NCBI GenBank assembly: GCA_019359235.1
Contig: JAHHHT010000053.1
Location: forward strand, 1 to 32,128
Length of the DNA: 32,128 nt
Origin: Oscillatoria princeps RMCB-10
GTDB taxonomy: Bacteria; Cyanobacteriota; Cyanobacteriia; Cyanobacteriales; Oscillatoriaceae
Reading direction: 5' to 3'
Part shown: one piece after another, positions 21,866-32,128 of the stretch
Position numbering within the stretch: the stretch's first letter is position 1
Layout: the number at the start of each line of letters is the position of its first letter
Notes under the pieces: generated by a model
What the model saw: only the letters and a program-made list of their open reading frames with translations
What the model was told of the DNA's origin: nothing
Database searches by the model: none
Program-made: the position numbers and the translations under genes

Positions 21866-22306
21866 ATGATGACTGTTCCCAGTTTCCGCTCCCTGCGGTT
21901 TCGCGCCTACCGCACCGTCCTGGCGATCGTCGCGCTCGCACTCATACCCGTGGGCTTGTGCACTAAGGCTTACCGGGGTCAGCTTGACTGGTGGGTGAAC
22001 GATTATGCCGGTGCGATCCTCTACGAAGCCTTCTGGATAGTGCTGGTGGCCTTCATCTGGCCACAGGCGTCGCCGGCCAAAGTGGCCACCGGCGTTTTCG
22101 CCGCCACGGCACTGCTGGAATGCCTCCAGCTGTGGCAGCCCCCATTCTTGCAAGCGATTCGGGCCACATGGGTAGGGCGCACTCTCCTGGGCACCACTTT
22201 TGTCTGGTGGGACTTCCTCTACTATGTTTTGGGATGCGCCCTGACTTGGCTAGCGCTGCGCTACCTCAAATCCAAGCTTGTGAAAGTTAAGGAAGAAACC
22301 GTGTAG
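21866..22306 (+). CDS. DUF2809 family membrane protein
   Basis: The product has 146 residues with about four hydrophobic segments (15-33, 46-66, 72-92 and 118-136). The family pattern is recognisable: GLCTKAYRGQLDWWVNDYAG, ILYEAFWIVL, ALLECLQLWQPPFLQAIR and RTLLGTTFVWWDFLYYVLGC. Members are small integral membrane proteins of unknown function. Two ATG codons start the frame at 21866 and 21869; either may be used. The gene is followed within 25 bases by a palindromic repeat pair, then msrA on the same strand. Confidence 0.88.
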   Translation: MMTVPSFRSLRFRAYRTVLAIVALALIPVGLCTKAYRGQLDWWVNDYAGAILYEAFWIVLVAFIWPQASPAKVATGVFAATALLECLQLWQPPFLQAIRATWVGRTLLGTTFVWWDFLYYVLGCALTWLALRYLKSKLVKVKEETV

Positions 22307-22330
22307 AGTGCCGGTGCGGCGCTACAGAAA

Positions 22331-22477
22331 GTAGGGTGCGTTCCGCGTCATCCATTCTCGGACAGATAATGGTGCTGACTCGCACGCGGAACGCACCGCT
22401 ACAGGAGGGGGGGTGCGTTCCGCCTTATCTATTTCCGCACACAAATAAGGGGTGCACTCAGGCGGAACGCACCCTAC
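22331..22477. repeat. Two GTAGGGTGCGTT palindromic elements before msrA
   Basis: Element 22331-22402 starts GTAGGGTGCGTTCCGCGT and ends ACGCGGAACGCACCGCTAC. Element 22411-22477 starts GGGTGCGTTCCGCC and ends GGCGGAACGCACCCTAC. Both have stems of 13 or more bases enclosing about 35-40 bases of unrelated core. They belong to the palindrome family that recurs from here to the end of the window. They lie just upstream of the msrA start and could affect its transcript. Confidence 0.9.
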
Positions 22478-22498
22478 AGAGTATGGGAGAAGAAAAAC

Positions 22499-22972
22499 AT
22501 GAATTTTGCCACATTTGCCGCCGGCTGTTTTTGGGGAGTAGAAGACAGGTTTCGCCAAGTCAAAGGGGTTATTGCAACTGCAGCCGGCTACACCGGCGGG
22601 CACTTTCCCAATCCCTGCCATCTCGATGTTTGCGCCAGAATTACCGGGCACGCCGAGGCGGTGCGGGTGGAGTATGACCCCAATCTAGTAACCTATGAAC
22701 AGCTGCTGGAAGTGTTTTGGGATTGCCACGATCCCACTCAACTCAACCGGCAGGGTCCAGACCGGGGGGAGCAGTACCGCTCTGCTATATTCTACCACAC
22801 TCCTGAGCAGGAAAAAGCCGCCCGGGCATCCAAGTTAAAACTGCAGATGTCAGGGAAATATGATAGGGATATTGTTACCGAGATAAAGCCGGCGGGAGAG
22901 TTCTGGGTTGCGGCGGAGGAACACCAGCAGTATTTTGAGAAGAAACGGCGCAGGGGTGAGGGAAAAATCTGA
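22499..22972 (+). CDS. msrA: Peptide methionine sulfoxide reductase MsrA
   Basis: The product has 157 residues. MsrA reduces the S-epimer of methionine sulfoxide in proteins. The catalytic motif GCFWGVE (9-15) carries C10. Other family blocks are [12 protein letters not shown] (28-39), [14 protein letters not shown] (48-61) and [20 protein letters not shown] (75-94), and the C-terminal [14 protein letters not shown]40 and C45 are possible extra redox cysteines. The C terminus is short, as in many bacterial forms. The start at 22499 lies just before the conserved N-terminal beta strand. It is the first gene on the plus strand downstream of a palindromic repeat pair. Confidence 0.96.
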
Positions 22973-23103
22973 TATAATGTGCGGTTGACTCACGGGAATT
23001 TGGAGCCGGCCCTGCGGATAGAGCCCGCAGGACAGGCGGAAATGCCTGTGCCAGTATTCTGTTGAGCCGATTGCTATATTGTGGGGATGCAACTGAAAGT
23101 GAT

Positions 23104-26100
23104 ATGATGGTAGAAACAGGTCAAATTGTACGGGTGCGGTCGCGACAGTATCTCGTGGAAGAGGTTGTCCCGAAACCGTCTGATACAGAAGACACTTTAG
23201 TGCGGCTCTCCTGTCTGGAAGACGAGGCGCTGGGGGAATCTCTGGAAGTGCTGTGGGAGCGAGAAGTGGATGCGGTTGGCGCGGGGGAAACTTCGTGGGA
23301 GTCTGTCGCCAGTCGGGGATTTGATGCGCCGAAATACTTTTCGGCTTACCTGCACGCGCTGCGCTGGAATTGCGTTACGTCTACAGAAGCTAGGCTTTTT
23401 CAAGCTCCCTACCGGGCGGGGATTGAAGTGAAGGCATACCAGCTGGAACCGCTGAGGAAAGCTCTGCTGATGCCTAGAGTCGGGCTGTTTATTGCCGATG
23501 ATGTTGGGTTGGGTAAAACCATTGAGGCGGGGCTGATTTTGCGGGAGATGCTGATGCGGCAAAAGGTGCGGCGTGTGGTGATATCTTGCCCGCCTTCTGT
23601 GGTTCGCCAGTGGCGAGAGGAAATGGAGAGCCGGTTCGGACTGACTTTTATTATTTTAGACCGGCAATTTGTCGCCAGCCGCCGGCAGGAGCGGGGGTAT
23701 GGGATTAATCCGTGGGCGACGCACACTCGTTTTATTATATCACATGCGCTGCTGCGAGATGAGACTTATGCGGCACCTTTAAGAGACTGGCTGGGGGAAT
23801 TTTGCGCCGGCTCGATGCTGATTTTGGATGAGGCTCACAACGCCGCACCGGCAAGCGGTGCCAAGTATGCGGTGGACTCGCAGCTGACGCGAACGGTTCG
23901 GGAGATAGCGCCGCGCTTTGAGCACAAGCTGTTCCTTTCGGCAACGCCGCACAACGGACATTCTAACAGTTTCGCGGCTTTGCTGGAAATGCTGGACTCG
24001 CAGCGGTTTTGCCGGGGGGTGCCGGTGCGGAATTCCAAGTTGCTGGATGCGGTGATGGTGCGCCGGCTGAAGCGGGATTTGCGGGAGGTGGGAGTGGATG
24101 ATTTTCCTAAGCGGGAAGTGATTCCGATTGTGATTGACGGTTTGCCAGAAGATGCGGTAGAATTGAAGCTATCTCGGCTGCTGCAAGAGTACCGGCAGTT
24201 GCGGGAGGAGCGGCTGAAAAATGAGTCGAAGTCAAGGCAAGCCGCTGCTTTGCTGGTGATCACTTCGCTGCAGAAGCGATTGCTGTCCTCGATTGAGGCA
24301 TTCGCCCGCACTTTGAGGGCGCACCGGCAGGCGATCGAGTCAGTAGGGTGCGTTGCGCCACCGGATGAAACACAGCAAAGAAGAATGGGGGCGAGCAACG
24401 CACCCTACATTGCTCAGGTAGGGTGCGTTGCGCCACCGGATGAAACACAGCAAAGAAGAATGGGGGCGAGCAACGCACCCTACTCGCTGCTGTCAGAATC
24501 GCCGGGGGCGGATGACGAGCGGGCGGAACTTTCGGATGAGGAAATCCAAGCGGAAGAAGACGCTGAAATGAAAGCAGCAACTCAGGTGGGGTGCGTTGCG
24601 CCATTGGATGAAACACAGCAAAAAAGAATGGGGGCGAGCAACGCACCCTACATTGCACCGGCTCTCACGCCGCGCGAGTTGGAGCTGCTCGCCGAGATGG
24701 CAGAAATTGCCGGTGCGGCGCGGTTTGAGGCGGACTCTCGCATCAAAAAGCTGGTAGAGTGGGTTCAGGAAAATCTCTGTCCGGATTTGGGAAAGCCAGA
24801 TGCGGCTTGGCTGGACCGGCGGGTGCTGATTTTCACGGAATACACGGATACAAAGCGCTATTTGCAGGAGATGCTGCAATCGGCAATTGCCGGCTCTCAC
24901 CGGGAAAAGGAGCGGATTGAGGTGTTTCACGGCGGGATTGGGGAAGAGCGGCGGGAAGCGATTAAGCTGGCTTTTAATACGAAACCGTCGGCACACCCGC
25001 TGCGGATTCTGATCGCGACTGATGCGGCGCGAGAGGGGGTGAATTTGCAAAATTACTGCGCGGATTTGTTCCACTTTGACGTGCCTTGGAATCCCAGCCG
25101 GATGGAGCAGCGCAACGGGCGAATTGACCGGAAATTGCAGCGCTCTCCTGTTGTGCGGTGCCACTATTTTGTTTTGCCGCAGCGGGCGGAAGATCGGGTG
25201 CTGGATGTGCTGGTGAGGAAGACGGCGACGATTCAAAAAGAACTGGGAAGTCTGACGCCGGTGGTGCAGAAAAATTTGTCGCGGCTGCTGGAAAAGGGGA
25301 TTGGATATCAGGAGGCGGACAGTCTCGCCGCCTCGATTGAACAATTGGGGGCTGCTGGAGATTTTGACAGCTCGCCTCACAGCAAAGTTATCGGGGAAGA
25401 GTTGGAAGCCGTCAAAGTGGGAAAGGCGGAGCTGGCTAAGCAAATTGAGGGCTTGCGAAAAATGCTGGAAGCTTCTCAGGATTGGCTGGGATTTGATGAC
25501 GGGCATTTTCGCGATGCGATCTCGGCGTCTCTGGAAATTTTGGGGGCGAAACCTATAGAGCCGGTGAATCCGCACTCGGCGGCGACAGCGCCGGTGGCGC
25601 AGTGGGCGCTTCCCGCGCTCTCAGAGCGGTTCGGGGCTGATCCCACTTGGAGCGCCACTCTGGACACGTTGAGAGCGCCCCGGAAAAAGGGGCAAAACCT
25701 GTGGGATTGGCGGCGGTGTGCGCCGGTGCGCCCGGTTGTTTTTCGCGATCCGGCTTCGCTGGATGGGGAGGTGGTGCACTTGCACTTGGAGCACCGGCTG
25801 GCGCAGCGGCTTTTGGGGCGGTTTCTGGCGCAGGGCTTTTTGCATGACGAGCTGACTCGCGCTTGCGTCTGCCTTACGGATGACCCCGTTCCAAAGGTGA
25901 TGGCGCTCGGTCGTCTTTCGCTGTATGGCGAGCGTGCGTCTAGATTGCATGATGAGGTGATTGCGGTGGCGGCGGAGTGGGCTGAGCCGAGTGCGAGGGG
26001 GCGCAAAAAGTTGCGACCTTTGGGGGAAAATGACAAGGAGAATGTGCTGCAGTTGCTGGAAATTTCTCTGGCGTCTCCCCGGTTGCGAGAGGTTCCGGAA

Positions 26101-26493
26101 TGGGTGAAGTTGCGGCTGCGCGAAAGTGCGGCGCAGGATGTGGGGGAGCTGATTCCGCATTTGAAATTGCGGGCTGAAAAATTGGCAGAACGGGCGCAGC
26201 GAAAGCTGTCGGCGAGAGGGGAAAAGGAAGCGGCGGAAATGGCGAGGATTTTGCAGGAACAGCGCCAGCAGATTTTGTCTCGCGAGAAGGAAACTGAGGC
26301 GGTGCAGCTGTCTCTATTTGAGGAAAACGAGCAGCGCCAAATTGAAGCTGACCGGCGCTACTGGAAAAAGCGTCTGGCGAGTCTGGAACAGGAGCTGACA
26401 GAGGAGCCACGGCGGATTGAGGCGACTTACCAGGTTAAGGCGGTGCGCGTCGAGCCGGTGGGGTTAGTATATTTATATCCGGTTACCGGTTAG
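23104..26493 (+). CDS. drmD: SNF2-family helicase, DISARM DrmD candidate
   Basis: The product has 1129 residues. An N-terminal region leads into FSAYLHALRWNCVTSTEARL and FQAPYRAGIEVKAYQLEPLR, then the SNF2 motor: Walker A DDVGLGKT (132-139), DEAH at 242-245, SATPHNGH (279-286), IATDAAREGVNLQN (637-650) and QRNGRIDR (669-676). The order and sequence style match DrmD, the helicase marking class 1 DISARM. Between the two motor lobes (414-516) there are three in-frame peptide inserts encoded by palindromic repeats, embedded in an acidic linker. A QLSLF pentapeptide at 1068-1072 matches the known sliding-clamp binding consensus. The start is the first of two ATG codons at 23104 and 23107; a TTG at 23062 is less likely. 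The next intact gene on the strand is a drmMI-like methyltransferase. Family is firm; the DISARM assignment needs the neighbours beyond the window. Confidence 0.85.
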   Translation: MMVETGQIVRVRSRQYLVEEVVPKPSDTEDTLVRLSCLEDEALGESLEVLWEREVDAVGAGETSWESVASRGFDAPKYFSAYLHALRWNCVTSTEARLFQAPYRAGIEVKAYQLEPLRKALLMPRVGLFIADDVGLGKTIEAGLILREMLMRQKVRRVVISCPPSVVRQWREEMESRFGLTFIILDRQFVASRRQERGYGINPWATHTRFIISHALLRDETYAAPLRDWLGEFCAGSMLILDEAHNAAPASGAKYAVDSQLTRTVREIAPRFEHKLFLSATPHNGHSNSFAALLEMLDSQRFCRGVPVRNSKLLDAVMVRRLKRDLREVGVDDFPKREVIPIVIDGLPEDAVELKLSRLLQEYRQLREERLKNESKSRQAAALLVITSLQKRLLSSIEAFARTLRAHRQAIESVGCVAPPDETQQRRMGASNAPYIAQVGCVAPPDETQQRRMGASNAPYSLLSESPGADDERAELSDEEIQAEEDAEMKAATQVGCVAPLDETQQKRMGASNAPYIAPALTPRELELLAEMAEIAGAARFEADSRIKKLVEWVQENLCPDLGKPDAAWLDRRVLIFTEYTDTKRYLQEMLQSAIAGSHREKERIEVFHGGIGEERREAIKLAFNTKPSAHPLRILIATDAAREGVNLQNYCADLFHFDVPWNPSRMEQRNGRIDRKLQRSPVVRCHYFVLPQRAEDRVLDVLVRKTATIQKELGSLTPVVQKNLSRLLEKGIGYQEADSLAASIEQLGAAGDFDSSPHSKVIGEELEAVKVGKAELAKQIEGLRKMLEASQDWLGFDDGHFRDAISASLEILGAKPIEPVNPHSAATAPVAQWALPALSERFGADPTWSATLDTLRAPRKKGQNLWDWRRCAPVRPVVFRDPASLDGEVVHLHLEHRLAQRLLGRFLAQGFLHDELTRACVCLTDDPVPKVMALGRLSLYGERASRLHDEVIAVAAEWAEPSARGRKKLRPLGENDKENVLQLLEISLASPRLREVPEWVKLRLRESAAQDVGELIPHLKLRAEKLAERAQRKLSARGEKEAAEMARILQEQRQQILSREKETEAVQLSLFEENEQRQIEADRRYWKKRLASLEQELTEEPRRIEATYQVKAVRVEPVGLVYLYPVTG
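24343..24408. repeat. In-frame palindromic element in drmD, copy 1
   Basis: The element is 66 bases (22 codons). It starts GTAGGGTGCGTTGC and ends GCAACGCACCCTAC, a perfect 14-base inverted repeat. It is read as V-G-C-V-A-P-P ... S-N-A-P-Y. Removing it leaves the helicase frame intact. Confidence 0.95.
24418..24483. repeat. In-frame palindromic element in drmD, copy 2
   Basis: It is identical to copy 1 in all 66 bases and separated from it by nine bases (ATTGCTCAG). The identity and short spacing indicate a recent tandem duplication. It is read in the same frame. Confidence 0.95.
24586..24651. repeat. In-frame palindromic element in drmD, copy 3
   Basis: It is 66 bases long with four differences from copies 1 and 2. 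These give one silent change (GTA to GTG), one proline to leucine and one arginine to lysine. It is preceded by ACTCAG, as copy 2 is by GCTCAG, and the host codons between copies 2 and 3 are strongly acidic. Confidence 0.95.
26305..26319 (+). other. Putative sliding-clamp binding motif QLSLF in DrmD
   Basis: Codons 1068-1072 encode Q-L-S-L-F in a polar, probably helical tail. This is the consensus pentapeptide by which bacterial proteins bind the beta sliding clamp. The motif is seen directly; binding is an inference. Confidence 0.45.
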
Positions 26494-26495
26494 GT

Positions 26496-26531
26496 GTAGG
26501 GTGCGTTCCCTCGCGCGGGAACGCACCCTAC
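26496..26531. repeat. Short GTAGGGTGCGTTCC hairpin after drmD
   Basis: It starts two bases after the drmD stop codon. GTAGGGTGCGTTCC and GGAACGCACCCTAC flank a small GC-rich loop, giving a stem of about 15 bases without a T-tract. It could stabilise the 3' end of the drmD transcript. Confidence 0.9.
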
Positions 26532-26679
26532 CGGCACATACGGAGGGAATTGCAATGACAGCAACCGAAATAAAACTGTGGACTGTGGATGAATATCACC
26601 GGCTGATAGACGCCGGCTTTTTGACTGAGGATGACAAAGTTGAACTGCTAGAAGGTAGAATTGTACAAAACAGTTAGTT

Positions 26680-26714
26680 GTAGGGTGCGTTCCCTAAGAG
26701 GGAACGCACCCTAC
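26680..26714. repeat. Hairpin element inside the Uma2 pseudogene, copy 1
   Basis: GTAGGGTGCGTTCCCT-AAG-AGGGAACGCACCCTAC is a perfect 16-base stem with a three-base loop. It replaces the centre of the Uma2 gene, so its arrival was linked to a deletion or the deletion came later. Confidence 0.95.
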
Positions 26715-26875
26715 CCCTGATTGAGGTGGCTTATACAACGCTGGAAATTGACCGCTCGGAAAAAGGTACTATCTACGCCAGAGCCAATATTGCGGATTAC
26801 TGGATTTTGGATGTGGCGAACCGGCACGCCTACATTTTCCGCAACCCCACACCGGCAGTAGGGGGGCATATAGTT

Positions 26876-26910
26876 GTAGGGTGCGTTCCCTAAGAGGGAA
26901 CGCACCCTAC
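26876..26910. repeat. Hairpin element inside the Uma2 pseudogene, copy 2
   Basis: It is identical to the element at 26680-26714. A 59-base direct duplication of Uma2 coding sequence flanks it (26800-26858 and 26919-26977). Confidence 0.95.
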
Positions 26911-27093
26911 GAGTTACACTGGATTTTGGATGTGGCGAACCGGCACGCCTATATTTTCCGCAACCCCACACCGGCAGGCTATCAATCTGAAACCGCTCTC
27001 CAGTATAATGGTGTTATCGCCCCGCTGGCGTTCCCGGACATTCCCATCCCCCTGTCGGAATTATTTCTCCCCCTAAACCCTAACCCCTAACCC

Positions 27094-27304
27094 GTAGGGT
27101 GCGTTCCCTATGCCAGCCTTCCCGATGGAGGTGCGTTCTCTGGAACGCACCCTACCCCCTAACCCGTAGGGTGCGTTCCTCTGGAACGCACCCTACCCCT
27201 ACTACCCCCTAACCCCTAACAATGGCAACAGTAGGGTGCGTTCCTCTGGAACGCACCCTACCCCTACTAACCCGTAGGGTGCGTTCCTCTGGAACGCACC
27301 CTAC
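27094..27304. repeat. Cluster of four hairpin elements before drmMI
   Basis: A composite element spans 27094-27155. Three identical 31-base hairpins follow at 27166-27196, 27231-27261 and 27274-27304, each with a perfect 14-base stem (GTAGGGTGCGTTCC) and a TCT loop. CCCCTAA tandem words separate them. A 70-base perfect direct repeat, 27161-27230 and 27269-27338, includes a hairpin, the CCCCTAA words and the ATGGCAACA start of drmMI. Confidence 0.95.
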
Positions 27305-27320
27305 CCCTACTACCCCCTAA
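27222..27320 (+). other. Duplicated start and short upstream reading frame of drmMI
   Basis: ATGGCAACA at 27222 is a second copy of the first three codons of drmMI. It is in the same frame, 108 bases upstream, and runs for 32 codons through two hairpin elements before a stop at 27318. It appears to be the original start region displaced by insertion and duplication. It might act as an upstream reading frame if transcribed. Confidence 0.7.
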
Positions 27321-27329
27321 CCCCTAACA

Positions 27330-30300
27330 ATGGCAACAGATCCAGAACTTCTCAGGCATAAAGAATGGCTAGGCTTCCTCCAGCCGGTGGGGCTGGTGGT
27401 GTCTCCCCCCGCTCTGGTAAAGGCGCAGGCGGTGGTGAGCCGCAATGTGGTGGAATTGCAGCAGACTTTGCGGGAAACCGTTGAGACGAGTGACGATTTA
27501 TATTGCATTTCTGATTTTGCTGCATTTGCTGTAAATGCTTTAGGTTGGCAGCCAACAGACTTAGTGCCGGCATCTGAATTGCCTACTGAGCTGTCAGTGC
27601 TGCTGCGAGAGTATGGCGAAATATTGGCCCCAAGTTTTGCGGTGCCAGACTCGGAAAGTGGGGGCTGGCTGATGTTAGTCCAGGTGATTCCCACCGGCAC
27701 CTGTTTGGATGAAGCCGGCACGGAGGCGGAGAAGTCTGGGAAGTGGGGCGCTTCGCCGCAAGCGAAGTTTGAGCGGCTGTTGCGGGAGACGGGAATTCCT
27801 GTCGGGGTGCTGTGCAATGGCGCGGATTTGCGACTGGTTTATGCGCCGAGAGGCGAGTCTTCCGGATACCTGACTTTTCCCGTTCAGGCAATGTGCGAGG
27901 TTTCCGGGCGTCTGATCCTGGGGGCGATGGAAATGCTGCTGGGAGCGGACCGGCTTTTTAATTACCCCAGCGAGCGCCGGCTGGCTGCTTTGCTGCAAGA
28001 AAGTCGCAAGTACCAGAATGAGGTTTCGACGAAACTGTCGGAACAGGTTCTCGATGCGCTTTGGGAATTGCTGCGCGGGTTCCAGATAGCAGATGAGGGA
28101 GAGGGTCGAACGGTACTGTCGCTACAGAAACTTGCCAAAACGGACCCGCAGCACATTTATGGGGGTCTGGTTGCGGTTTTGCTGCGGCTGGTGTTTTTGC
28201 TGTATGCTGAAGATGAGGGGCTGATGCCCCAAGATGCGATTTACTCGCGCAACTATTCGGTGACGGGGCTTTTTGAAAAATTGCGGGAAGATGCCGGCAA
28301 TTACCCCGATACGATGGATCGCCGGTATGGCGCTTGGGCGTGGTTGCTGAGTTTGTTCCGCCTGGTTTATGATGGGGGAGCGCACGGGAATTTGTATTTG
28401 CCGGCGCGTCACGGGCAATTATTTGACCCGGATGAGTACCCGTTTTTGGAAGGCAGAAGTCTCGCTGGGAGCGCTGCTGCATCTTCTGCTATTAATGTGC
28501 CTCGCATTTCCGATGGTTTCGCCGGGTGCGTTGCCAAATCTCCTGCTGAAGCTGCAACTCACTCCCGTGAAATGGCAACGCACCCTACTATTAATGTGCC
28601 TCGCATTTCCGATGGGGTGATTTTTCGGGTGCTGCACCGGCTGCTGGTACTCGACGGTGAGCGCCTTTCCTACCGCGCTCTGGATGTGGAGCAAATCGGC
28701 TCAGTTTATGAGGCTGTGATGGGGTATGAGGTGGAGCGAGCCGCCGCCCCTTGCATTGGGGTTTGGAGCAAGCCAAAAAGTGCCAAATCCTCTGTTACTG
28801 TGGTGGTGAATTTGCAGGAAGTGCTGGCGGCGAAACCGAGCGAACGCGCTAAGCTGCTGAAAGATTCTGCCGGTTGCGAGGTGTCGGGAAATGCTCTGGC
28901 GCAGTTGAAAGACGCCAAGACGGTTGAGGATATTGTGGCGGCGATCGGGCGCAAAGTTTCGCCAAGCACGCCGAATATTTTGCCGGCGGGTTCGCTATAT
29001 TTGCAGCCTGGAGAGGAGCGCCGGCGATCTGGCTCGCACTACACGCCGCGCAGCCTTACGGAACCGATTGTGCGCACTACTTTAGAGCCGGTGCTGCGCG
29101 AGTTGGGAGAAAACCCGACGCCGGAGCAAATTTTATCCCTGAAAGTCTGCGATCCCGCAATGGGTTCGGGTGCGTTTTTGGTGGAAACTTGCCGGCAATT
29201 GGCAGAAAAGTTGGTGCGGGCGTGGGAAAGACACGGGAATACCCCCCTTGAAAAGGGGAACTTAGAAAACATTCCCCCCGTTTTTAAGGGGGGGCTAGAG
29301 GGGGAGCGCCAGAATATCCCCGATGGTGCAGAGCTGCTCACCCACGCACGCCGGCTGGTGGCGCAGCGCTGTCTCTACGGGGTGGATAAAAACCCGTTTG
29401 CGGTGAATTTGGCGAAGCTCTCTTTGTGGCTGGTGACGCTGGCGAAAGACTATCCGTTTACTTTTCTCGATCACGCCCTCAAGTGCGGGGATTCTCTAGT
29501 TGGCGTGACTCGCGAGGAGATTCAGAAATTTATTAAGGAGTCGGATATCTACAACACGCCGCTGCTGTCGCTGCTCAAGCAGCAGGTTAGCCGCGCCAAG
29601 GCGTACCGGGATGAAATTGGCAAGTTGGGCGATGGGGAAGATGAGGAAAAGCGCCAGCGCTTCCAAAAGGCAGAGTCGGAGTTGCAAGAAGCGCGGCTGA
29701 CAGGAAATGTGGCGGTGGCGGCTTTCTTTGGGGAGGATACGGACAAAAAGCGCAAGGAAAAAAGGCTGGAGTTTTCCCAGAAAGTGAATGAGTGGCGCAC
29801 TGCTGGGGGCGTTGCAGCAGTAGGGTGCGTTGCAGCGAGTGGGCATCAACAAATGCCGGCAGTAGGGTGCGTTGCAGCGAGTGGGCATCAACAAATGCCG
29901 GGGAAAAATACAAGCAACGCACCCTACGAACTGGCCAAAACTTTACAGGAGTTGGAGGCAGTAGGGTGCGTTGCAGCGAGTGGGCATCAACAAATGCCGG
30001 GGAAAAATACAAGCAACGCACCCTACGAACTGGCCAAAACTTTACAGGAGTTGGAGGCAGTAGGGTGCGTTGCAGCGAGTGGGCATCAACAAATGCCGGG
30101 GAAAAATACAAGCAACGCACCCTACGAACTGGTGCAAATTTTACAGGAGTTGGAGAAACCCGTCACGCCGTTTCACTGGGAGGTTGAGTTTCCGGAAGTC
30201 TTCGACAAGGAAAATCCTGGCTTTGACGCCGTGGTGGGCAATCCGCCGTTTTTTGGAGGGAGCAAAATTTCCTCAAACTTTGGCAATGAATATCTGGAGT

Positions 30301-31817
30301 GGTTGAAGGTTGCCAATCCAGAATCCCACGGGAATGCTGACTTGGTGGCGCACTTTTTCCGTCGCGCTTTCGCCATTCTGCGCAAGTCGGGGTGTTTTGG
30401 GCTGATTGCGACAAACACTATCGCGCAGGGCGACACCCGCAGCACCGGCTTGCGATACATCTGCCAAAATGGCGGCGCGATTTACTGCGCCCAAAAGCGT
30501 TTTAAATGGCCAGGGATTGCGGCGGTTGTGGTGAGCGTGGTTCACGTTCAAAAAGTAGGGTGCGTTGCCAAGACAAGCGGAAGTACAGATGAAAAATCCT
30601 TGATGGCAACGCACCCTACTGTGCCCGCCATTCTTGACGGGCGCGAGGTTACCCAGATTTCTGCTTTTCTGTTTCATGCCGGTGGGAGTGAGAACCCCGC
30701 CGTGTTGCTGGCGAATGCAAATAAGAGTTTTACAGGGGCGAAGATTTATGGACAAGGTTTTACCTTTGACGATTCGGATGCAGATGCGACGCCCATCGCC
30801 GAAATGCGCCGGCTGATTGAGAAAAATCCCAAAAATGCCGAGCGGATTTTTCCTTATATCGGGGGTGAGGAGGTGAACTCCAGCCCAACTCACGCCCACC
30901 ACCGCTATGTTATCAACTTTGGCGAGATGAGCGAGGCTGAAGCGTGGGAGTATCCCGATTGGATGAAGATTGTTGAGGAGAAGGTGAAGCCTCAGCGATT
31001 GGCACAAAAGCGTGAGATTCGCGCCCGTTATTGGTGGCGTTTTGGTGAGACTACACCGGCTCTGTTTCAGGCAATCGCCCAACTCGATCGCGTGTTGGTC
31101 TGTTCCCTGCACTCTCAGTATCTTTCGTTGGCATTCTTGTCAACCAACACTGTGTTTTCACACGCAATGGCTGTATTTGCTATTGAAAGATTCGCTGGCT
31201 TCAGCATCATGCAATCCCGCGTCCATGAAATCTGGGCGAGATTCTTCGGCTCATCCCTGGAAGACCGACTCCGCTACACCCCCACAGACTGTTTTGAAAC
31301 CTTCCCCTTCCCGGAGAACTGGGAAACCAACCCCACCCTGGAAGAAATTGGCAAAACCTATTACGAATACCGCGCCGGCTTGATGGTGCGCAACAGCCAA
31401 GGACTCACAGACACCTACAACCGCTTCCACGATCCGGATGAGCGAAACCCGGAAATCCTGAAACTGCGGGAACTGCACGCGGAGATGGATCGCGCCGTGC
31501 TCGACGCCTACGGGTGGAAAGACATCCCCACCGGCTGCACTTTCCTCCTCGATTACGAGGAAGAGGAGGAGGAAGATTCCCCCGGTAAAAAGGGGGGATT
31601 TCGGGAGAAGAAAAAGCCCTGGCGCTGCCGGTGGCCAGAAGATGTCCGCGATGAAGTTTTGGCGCGGTTGCTGGAGCTCAACCTGCAGCGATCCAAGCAG
31701 GAAATTCTCGGCGGGAAAGCTGCAGAGGGGAAACCCAAGGGAAAAGGTGGGAAGAAGGCACCGGCGAAGTCTCGCAAGAAGGGATCGGATCAGCCAACTC
31801 TGTTTAACCTGGAGTAG
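27330..31817 (+). CDS. drmMI: Eco57I-type adenine methyltransferase, DISARM DrmMI candidate
   Basis: The product has 1495 residues. The N-terminal 560 residues, with FNYPSERRLAALLQ and VFLLYAEDEGLMPQ, resemble the N-terminal part of large Eco57I/PglX-like methylases. SAM-binding motif I is CDPAMGSGAFLVETC (D608) and the catalytic motif IV is GNPPF (NPPF at 971-974). CLYGVDKNPFAVNLAKLSLW and LDHALKCGDSLVG between them are typical. The C terminus is lysine-rich and ends QPTLFNLE. DrmMI marks host DNA as self in class 1 DISARM. Palindromic repeats add peptide inserts at about 388-420, 638-658, 831-932 and 1076-1097, which explains part of its large size. The stop codon TAG lies in another copy of the repeat. 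No Shine-Dalgarno sequence precedes the start, which lies in a duplicated repeat. A type IIG or BREX-like enzyme is the main alternative. Confidence 0.85.
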   Translation: MATDPELLRHKEWLGFLQPVGLVVSPPALVKAQAVVSRNVVELQQTLRETVETSDDLYCISDFAAFAVNALGWQPTDLVPASELPTELSVLLREYGEILAPSFAVPDSESGGWLMLVQVIPTGTCLDEAGTEAEKSGKWGASPQAKFERLLRETGIPVGVLCNGADLRLVYAPRGESSGYLTFPVQAMCEVSGRLILGAMEMLLGADRLFNYPSERRLAALLQESRKYQNEVSTKLSEQVLDALWELLRGFQIADEGEGRTVLSLQKLAKTDPQHIYGGLVAVLLRLVFLLYAEDEGLMPQDAIYSRNYSVTGLFEKLREDAGNYPDTMDRRYGAWAWLLSLFRLVYDGGAHGNLYLPARHGQLFDPDEYPFLEGRSLAGSAAASSAINVPRISDGFAGCVAKSPAEAATHSREMATHPTINVPRISDGVIFRVLHRLLVLDGERLSYRALDVEQIGSVYEAVMGYEVERAAAPCIGVWSKPKSAKSSVTVVVNLQEVLAAKPSERAKLLKDSAGCEVSGNALAQLKDAKTVEDIVAAIGRKVSPSTPNILPAGSLYLQPGEERRRSGSHYTPRSLTEPIVRTTLEPVLRELGENPTPEQILSLKVCDPAMGSGAFLVETCRQLAEKLVRAWERHGNTPLEKGNLENIPPVFKGGLEGERQNIPDGAELLTHARRLVAQRCLYGVDKNPFAVNLAKLSLWLVTLAKDYPFTFLDHALKCGDSLVGVTREEIQKFIKESDIYNTPLLSLLKQQVSRAKAYRDEIGKLGDGEDEEKRQRFQKAESELQEARLTGNVAVAAFFGEDTDKKRKEKRLEFSQKVNEWRTAGGVAAVGCVAASGHQQMPAVGCVAASGHQQMPGKNTSNAPYELAKTLQELEAVGCVAASGHQQMPGKNTSNAPYELAKTLQELEAVGCVAASGHQQMPGKNTSNAPYELVQILQELEKPVTPFHWEVEFPEVFDKENPGFDAVVGNPPFFGGSKISSNFGNEYLEWLKVANPESHGNADLVAHFFRRAFAILRKSGCFGLIATNTIAQGDTRSTGLRYICQNGGAIYCAQKRFKWPGIAAVVVSVVHVQKVGCVAKTSGSTDEKSLMATHPTVPAILDGREVTQISAFLFHAGGSENPAVLLANANKSFTGAKIYGQGFTFDDSDADATPIAEMRRLIEKNPKNAERIFPYIGGEEVNSSPTHAHHRYVINFGEMSEAEAWEYPDWMKIVEEKVKPQRLAQKREIRARYWWRFGETTPALFQAIAQLDRVLVCSLHSQYLSLAFLSTNTVFSHAMAVFAIERFAGFSIMQSRVHEIWARFFGSSLEDRLRYTPTDCFETFPFPENWETNPTLEEIGKTYYEYRAGLMVRNSQGLTDTYNRFHDPDERNPEILKLRELHAEMDRAVLDAYGWKDIPTGCTFLLDYEEEEEEDSPGKKGGFREKKKPWRCRWPEDVRDEVLARLLELNLQRSKQEILGGKAAEGKPKGKGGKKAPAKSRKKGSDQPTLFNLE
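28489..28615. repeat. Palindromic insert flanked by 28-base direct repeats in drmMI
   Basis: The inverted ends GGGTGCGTTGCC (28524-28535) and GGCAACGCACCC (28574-28585) enclose a core. The same 28 bases, encoding I-N-V-P-R-I-S-D-G, occur at 28489-28516 and 28588-28615. The total offset is 99 bases, so the frame is kept. Confidence 0.92.
29242..29302. repeat. C/G-run repeat read through in drmMI
   Basis: CCCCCCTTGAAAAGGGG and CCCCCCGTTTTTAAGGGGGGG words, related to the intergenic repeat at 19211-19320, are read in frame as T-P-L-E-K-G-N ... P-P-V-F-K-G-G. They lie between motif I and the next conserved block. A smaller relic (CCCCCGGTAAAAAGGGGGGA) lies at 31577-31600 beside an acidic run. Confidence 0.75.
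29820..30125. repeat. Tandem array of in-frame palindromic elements in drmMI
   Basis: A truncated 42-base copy (29820-29861) is followed by three identical 66-base copies at 29862-29927, 29961-30026 and 30060-30125. Identical 33-base host segments (E-L-A-K-T-L-Q-E-L-E-A) separate the full copies, giving an exact 99-base period. A diverged copy of the host segment follows the last element. Every copy is read as V-G-C-V-A-A-S ... S-N-A-P-Y. Confidence 0.97.
30555..30619. repeat. Single in-frame palindromic element in drmMI
   Basis: The ends are GTAGGGTGCGTTGCC and GGCAACGCACCCTAC around a 35-base core unlike the other cores. It is read as V-G-C-V-A-K-T ... A-T-H-P-T, so the right arm uses a different frame from the 66-base copies. 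No flanking duplication is visible. Confidence 0.92.
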
Positions 31818-32128
31818 GGTGCGTTGCCGTTTTACGTTTTGATGTCGGCAATTTTTTCGGGTGCCGGCAACGCACCCTACTGGGGGGTGCGTTGCCGTTT
31901 GGCGTTTTGATGCCGGTGATTTTGTCGGGTGCCGACAACGCACCCTACTGGGGGGGTGCGTTGCCGTTTGGCGTTTTGATGCCGGTGATTTTGTCGGTGG
32001 TGGGGTGCGTTGCCGTTTGGCGTTTTGATGCCGGTGATTTTGTCGGTGGTGGGGTGCGTTGCCGTTTGGCGTTTTGATGCCGGTGATTTTGTCGGTGGTG
32101 GGGTGCGTTGCCGTTTGGCGTTTTGATG
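31814..32128. repeat. Palindromic elements and 49-base tandem array after drmMI
   Basis: A first 67-base element (31814-31880) contains the drmMI stop codon in its left end. A second lies at about 31884-31948. From 31955 a 49-base unit starting GGTGCGTTGCCGTTTGGCG repeats at 31955, 32004, 32053 and 32102 and runs out of the window. The units keep the left arm and part of the core but lack the right arm. No gene is supported here. Confidence 0.95.

Follow-up and report, generated by a model that had tools for sequence, protein, structure and literature searches.

GTAG palindromes of REPIN architecture lie in frame in the DISARM genes drmD and drmMI of Oscillatoria princeps

Two DISARM genes and the elements inside them

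The window, by which we mean the whole 32,128-nucleotide stretch of DNA analyzed here, contains two adjacent genes that PADLOC assigns to class 1 DISARM. The first, drmD (23062..26493, plus strand), encodes 1143 residues from a TTG start (DrmD, E = 0); the second, drmMI (27330..31817, plus strand), encodes 1495 residues including in-frame inserts (DrmMI, E = 0). The contig (C24) extends 311 bp beyond drmMI and stops within a repeat array; the first gene of C7, a possible continuation, is not DrmA. Of the six loci scanned in relatives, five have DrmA downstream of drmMI and one has DrmB; the locus lacking DrmA there is L057, where the ORF scanned downstream of drmMI matched mad3. A search of the genome with the PF09369 profile, which we take to be the domain carried by DrmB, returned DruE of the Druantia system and another helicase. 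The DruE-type protein has 1902 aa and is encoded at G000:C41:92162-97867 (L253:7162-12867).

Within drmD there are three 66-bp elements on the plus strand. Copies 1 (24343..24408, VGCVAPPDETQQRRMGASNAPY) and 2 (24418..24483) are identical and are separated by 9 bp (24409..24417, ATTGCTCAG) that complete a 75-bp tandem unit. Copy 3 (24586..24651) is 94% identical, differing from copy 1 at 4 positions, and has the left arm GTGGGG. A sequence-only reading of this DNA had described all three as having perfect 14-base inverted ends, which is true of copies 1 and 2 (14/14) but not of copy 3 (13/14). It had also stated that the reading frame continues through every copy and that each adds 22 residues with one cysteine. 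We agree: the drmD frame spans 24343-24651 uninterrupted, and the translation of each copy has this composition. The predicted peptide is VGCVA...SNAPY, and its cysteine is encoded by the repeat's own stem (GGG TGC). Counted from the TTG at 23062, as throughout our analysis, the inserts occupy residues 428-449, 453-474, and 509-530, between SNF2-rel_dom (138-317) and Helicase_C (586-690); the residues 414-516 given earlier were counted from the ATG at 23104.

The sequence-only reading was silent on drmMI, yet drmD is not the sole host gene: drmMI carries in-frame elements of the same family at three places, all on the plus strand. At the first, a 68-bp REPIN (28521..28588, AGCVAKSPAEAATHSREMATHPT) with the left end GCCGGG stands between 27-bp direct repeats (left copy 28490..28516, TATTAATGTGCCTCGCATTTCCGATGG; right copy 28589..28615). 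The second is an array in which a truncated 42-bp element (29820..29861) precedes three 66-bp REPINs (29862..29927, 29961..30026, and 30060..30125) with a 99-bp period, each step including 33 bp of flanking gene. The third is a 65-bp REPIN (30555..30619, VGCVAKTSGSTDEKSLMATHPT). The insert peptides of drmD and of these three sites differ internally from one another. A further plus-strand REPIN (31814..31880) lies across the end of the gene, so that the TAG stop of drmMI falls within its GTAG foot; 3' of it come another element and then a 49-bp half-element array that runs to the contig end.

Other repeats surround these elements. The gap between the genes (26496..27304) holds seven intergenic REP palindromes of 31-62 bp with the GTTCC end type, and fragments at 26556-27060 look to us like a Uma2-type ORF interrupted by REPs. 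A second repeat type, unrelated to the GTAG elements, lies in frame on the plus strand of drmMI at a length-variable site of that protein family (29242..29303, CCCCCCTTGAAAAGGGG...CCCCCCGTTTTTAAGGGGGGG, or CCCCCC...AAGGGGGGG). A stretch resembling it is present elsewhere in the genome (L105).

A genome-wide family and its likely mode of movement

With up to two mismatches allowed, the window has 46 occurrences of the end motif where 1.75 are expected, and the drmD element folds with z = -5.8 relative to shuffles; the drmD elements are therefore not a product of chance. There is no Rfam match in 22000-32128, and we dropped a ribozyme or intron reading on that account. The ends belong to a family found all over the genome. 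Across 8.49 Mb, GTRGGGTGCGTT occurs 783 times, compared to 0 for a reversed control, and 61 exact inverted pairs GTRGGGTGCGTT...AACGCACCCYAC lie 25-55 bp apart, each with the GT[AG]G foot. Among the 50 of these 61 that were listed, the ends are constant and the interiors mostly unrelated. The plan is thus GTAG-GGTGCGTT...AACGCACC-CTAC, an inverted pair with a variable spacer, and the GTAG-tagged REPs of this genome are of the GTAGGGTGCGTT type. "Double foot" palindromes of 31-36 bp with identical ends are also frequent, and the five dimers whose hairpins we folded gave z values of -5.2 to -7.4. In the order as a whole, 225 of 291 genomes have at least one match to GTRGGGTGCGTT, with counts that differ widely: two congeners have 256 and 142, and five other family members have 1-7.

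These properties recall GTAG REPs and REPINs, which are described as having a GTAG foot, ends of approximately 14-16 bp, an inverted pair with a less conserved spacer, a length of approximately 66-71 bp, a hairpin, and a mostly extragenic location (PMC3116915, PMC3733652). Our elements share these features; they differ in the sequence of their ends (GGTGCGTT) and in being clustered in two defense genes. They may belong to one of the published cyanobacterial families GTAG-12/15/16. Because conserved ends, a variable spacer, an inverted pair, a hairpin, and a GTAG foot are features of a REPIN or GTAG REP dimer, we assign the drmD elements, by their sequence, to a genome-wide family of GTAG REP dimers with REPIN architecture.

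REPINs are thought to be moved as single-stranded hairpins by RAYT transposases of the Y1/HuH type. We surveyed 50 loci (L188-L237) around Y1 transposase matches in ten other genomes, a set in which some loci overlap and which covers part of the matches. The motif GT[AG]GGGTGCGT[TC] is present in five of them (L220, L221, L228, L230, and L231). Their RAYT genes, from four genomes of the order, form one clade with 58-96% identity and motifs such as DHFH and YIHYNP. Each is located no more than about 2 kb from this REP end, which some of them have on one side only. A sixth clade member (G044:C118) has only a one-mismatch REP copy nearby, so that five of the six clade genes are accompanied by the exact motif.

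PMC6006769 reports that tnpA_REP subclass 2.4 is abundant in Cyanobacteria and Bacteroidetes, and that frame-keeping REP insertions occur inside tnpA_REP genes of subclass 2.4 and some of the cyanobacterial subclass 2.8. The "double foot" REPs of subclass 2.4 have the same GT[AG]G / C[TC]AC ends and insert in frame into their own transposase gene, whereas the hosts here are DrmD and DrmMI, and the REP-adjoining RAYTs have DHFH and YIHYNP where NH[IFV]H and YIxNNP are tabulated. The window's genome has six Y1 matches and a seventh found with a clade probe; this last match is weak (E = 8e-5), has no adjoining REP, and was the probe's only hit, so we found no RAYT of the matching clade in this genome. 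The exact end motif lies within 1.5 kb of only two RAYTs, an intact one on C57 and a broken one on C40, and is close to neither. The C57 gene has two 67-bp dimers roughly 600-900 bp upstream and a different palindrome type at its close flank. With neither candidate closely flanked by the end motif, we assign none of the RAYTs found in this genome as the driver.

The elements might instead be ordinary MITEs, with terminal inverted repeats recognized by a DDE transposase. Their inverted repeats are indeed long and perfect, and one drmMI copy sits between 27-bp direct repeats as if between target-site duplications. However, by eye no such duplication is evident at the other drmD and drmMI copies, palindromes of 31-36 bp built of two feet with the same ends are common, and the GTAG foot points to REPINs, as does the fact that RAYTs of other genomes have this motif next to them. 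We regard the MITE reading as improbable.

Probable insertion and local multiplication in tolerant linkers

We compared DrmD with its relatives after merging proteins identical over residues 100-800, which reduced the set from 58 to 54. The linker between the two lobes measures 142 aa in the window's DrmD, compared to 85-100 aa in the 53 others, and the insert peptide is absent from all 53. The sequence-only reading had proposed this homologue comparison and had placed the inserts in an inter-lobe linker able to tolerate added peptide; the comparison bears it out, both insertion sites being at length-variable junctions. It also makes it hardly credible that the inserts are native to DrmD and were lost from its relatives, or that they are an artefact of assembly. 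The contig does end in repeats, and nothing further speaks for such a reading; against it stand the 53 proteins that lack the peptide, the occurrence of the family all over the genome, and the substitutions that set copy 3 apart from copy 1. The event at copies 1 and 2 was not a clean insertion, since approximately 10 residues of the native linker are absent next to them.

Both genes remain under purifying selection. For drmD, dN is 0.17 and dS about 3 relative to L057; across both genes dN is 0.17-0.24, with dS about 3 in three comparisons and saturated in the other five.

To describe where the inserts lie, we counted junctions at which any relative has an insert of at least 3 aa. In drmD there are 10 such junctions out of 1075 (45 relatives), and they include both insertion places of the window's gene, where 11 and 5 relatives, respectively, have inserts. 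In drmMI there are 21 out of 1323 (47 relatives); the window's gene has five inserts of at least 8 aa, each within eight columns of such a junction. The five include the CCCC-type repeat and two segments of a single array; for one of these segments no relative has an insert at the exact junction. By chance, a share of 0.112 of junctions would qualify in drmD (2/2 observed) and 0.182 in drmMI (5/5 observed). The inserts thus occupy stretches that vary anyway.

The flanks of the copies indicate local duplication in both genes. Copies 1 and 2 of drmD form the 75-bp tandem unit, and copy 3 is bordered on its left by CTCAG, as copy 2 is, and on its right by ATTGC, as copy 1 is; these are the two halves of the 9-bp spacer. 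In drmMI the 33 bp of gene sequence are repeated with each 66-bp element behind the 42-bp unit. All multiplied units (75, 99, and 42 bp) preserve the frame. A source copy for the interior of the drmD element was not found elsewhere among the candidates scored: in its own genome the 66-mer matched only the three drmD copies (40 of 88 candidates scored), and in the 290 other genomes it was absent from the best three or fewer candidates scored per genome among the matches listed.

We then asked how dimers are distributed, using 848,552 bp that comprise the window, the start of C7, and 40 stretches, 29 of which were chosen around listed dimers and not at random. Defined as 58-75 bp with two mismatches allowed per 12-base end, dimers number 68 in this sample, and their interiors are mostly unrelated. 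Sixty lie outside drmD and drmMI, in keeping with a high-copy and mostly extragenic family. The remaining 8 of the 68, in drmD or drmMI, are the only dimers with conserved gene sequence on both sides in this sample, which was partly chosen around elements. Fifteen of 16 other listed open frames spanning an element were scanned, with at least 120 bases of frame on each side, only sense frames in the window, and a crude test for a gene. Thirteen have no Pfam match; in the frames matching KsgA and AIM24 the element precedes the domain and probably lies before the true start of the gene. Because of local duplication, the eight dimers in drmD and drmMI are not independent and represent four interior types. 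Finding the intragenic copies concentrated in two neighboring genes goes beyond what neutral scatter would predict, unless local spread explains it.

Local spread is also how we read the GTTGC end variant (GTRGGGTGCGTTGC): the genome has 52 copies of it, and this locus accounts for 27 of them (21 on C24 and 6 at the start of C7). We rejected the notion of a "coding" subtype, because none of the remaining 25 ends (14 stretches, L085 and L116-L128) falls within a frame that matches Pfam. The 49-bp half-element tandem array ends C24 (window 31951-32128) and starts C7 (G000:C7:1-250, L025); as the two contig ends have 90 identical bases in common, they may be neighbors. On C7, an open frame for an NB-ARC ATPase (G000:C7:2-1666, minus strand, L025; Pfam match at 178-275 of 555 aa) extends at its 3' end across the repeat array and past the edge of the contig. 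Two further dimers (C7 109-175 and 177-243) lie at this open end, and we kept them among the 60 in the counts and in the hydropathy comparison below.

The explanation that we consider very probable is REPIN insertion followed by local tandem duplication, tolerated in linkers, with the peptide as a by-product. At least one REPIN would have entered the DrmD inter-lobe linker in frame, where relatives vary in length, presumably moved by a RAYT as a single-stranded hairpin. Further drmD copies would have arisen locally together with flanking bases, giving the 75-bp unit of copies 1 and 2 and copy 3 with its shared flanks, and the same process in drmMI would have produced the 99-bp and 42-bp units. 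Selection for working proteins would then keep the inserts at a total length that is a multiple of 3, free of stops, and hydrophilic. The insert peptides, with means of -1.1 to -2.0, are in fact the more hydrophilic when set against translated intergenic copies, whose mean is -0.53 (p = 0.009, n = 4 vs. 86). Near-duplicate drmD copy 3 was omitted, and the 86 are 43 dimers, reduced from the 60, read both ways with stops skipped. Adding five hand-chosen peptides from relatives gives p = 0.0024. If translated, the 22-aa peptide would be neutral, with no required function, and a function for it appears unlikely.

Palindromes in the linkers of relatives

A selected role could nevertheless attach to the inserts themselves, if hairpins in the mRNA or the frame-keeping tandem units (75, 99, and 42 bp) tuned how much DrmD and DrmMI is made or how long these proteins are, for example to limit self-toxicity or diversify the proteins. 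The strong hairpins, the unit sizes in multiples of 3, the restriction of all eight gene-embedded dimers to these two genes, and the recurrence of different palindromes in the same linkers of relatives would fit this idea. Nevertheless, we consider it unlikely, in view of the internal dissimilarity of the drmD and drmMI peptides and of the survey of relatives. There, inverted repeats with 12-bp arms occur in just 3 of 50 DrmD and 7 of 59 DrmMI nonredundant ORFs. Once ORFs sharing 95% identity or more had been merged (from 309 to 245, counting those of the window), inverted-repeat clusters number 15 in 351 kb of drmD and drmMI compared to 3 in 206 kb of neighboring ORFs, an excess that is not significant (one-sided p = 0.057). 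This count supersedes one made before merging (drmD 7, drmMI 16, and other 3, with codon-shuffle expectations of 1.0, 2.0, and 9.4). We rejected a general enrichment of inverted repeats in these genes on the basis of that p value, for which reason a special affinity of DISARM genes for palindromes is a suggestion rather than a result.

The individual cases are as follows. The DrmMI of G218 has GTCGC-type elements near residues 395 and 1078, the same sites as in the window's DrmMI; this end has 57 exact occurrences in G218 and 0 in the window's genome. In the DrmMI of G165 the second of these sites is occupied by a decayed element, and the element at 30555 of the window shares one junction, after VQK, with the G218 and G165 elements. 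We did not adopt shared descent for the three, because the ends in G218 are of the GTCGC type and independent insertion would look the same as later conversion of the ends. Other relatives have other repeats in the drmMI loops: a GCCGGGGAATTAATTCCCCGTC... element in frame near residue 1078 (L063 and L075), a tandem array bearing GCGATCGC near residue 645, presumably HIP1-like (L061), and a GGCTCTGCCTGGGAA element at both sites (L072). GTAG...CTAC palindromes lie in the DrmD inter-lobe linker of two other genomes, Dolichospermum sp. ST_sed8 (L064/L156) and an uncultured cyanobacterium (L169), and G218 has one elsewhere in drmD.

Different repeats in the same spots of related proteins were less expected than the repeat itself. 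As the linkers in question, in DrmD and in DrmMI alike, have received different palindromes in different cyanobacteria, there may be a route by which palindromes become tolerated or useful protein segments. The bolder proposal that cyanobacterial DISARM linkers are recurrent acceptors of host palindromes, and that in-frame, tandemly variable inserts are adaptive in varying DrmD and DrmMI length or expression and so diversifying an anti-phage system, seems to us unlikely, if slightly less so than the tuning role above.

The sequence-only reading had likened the situation to Rickettsia palindromic elements. The likeness stands for the way the inserts work, since both are palindromic and in frame in unrelated genes, but not for the kind of element, which here is a GTAG REP dimer and not a peptide element. 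As described in PMC10969869, the Rickettsia elements are approximately 150 bp long and encode a conserved peptide, whereas ours have 66 bp, a GTAG tag, and an interior and peptide that are not conserved between sites. A conserved peptide common to many unrelated proteins was not found: the 66-mer matched only drmD among the candidates scored, and the drmMI peptides differ.

According to PMC3733652, intragenic GTAG and CGTC REPs are in over half of cases dimers or grouped, encode 20-30 aa, and in many cases lie in DNA synthesis or repair genes; intragenic R. conorii repeats (CGTC REPs) are equated there with RPE-4/6. In-frame intragenic GTAG REPs, including cyanobacterial ones, are thus already in print, and what is new is their setting in DISARM genes: as the earlier reading had supposed, the open-access literature yielded no report of REP inserts there. 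The observation is real, the kind of element known, and the concentration unusual. It provides a compact case of non-autonomous repeats adding predicted coding sequence to defense genes still under selection, and a caution that "extragenic" palindromes are sometimes intragenic. Among the relatives, the locus L075 (G111:C1:231020-236849) has drmD matches in two parts approximately 3.6 kb apart, covering residues 15-299 and 694-1143.
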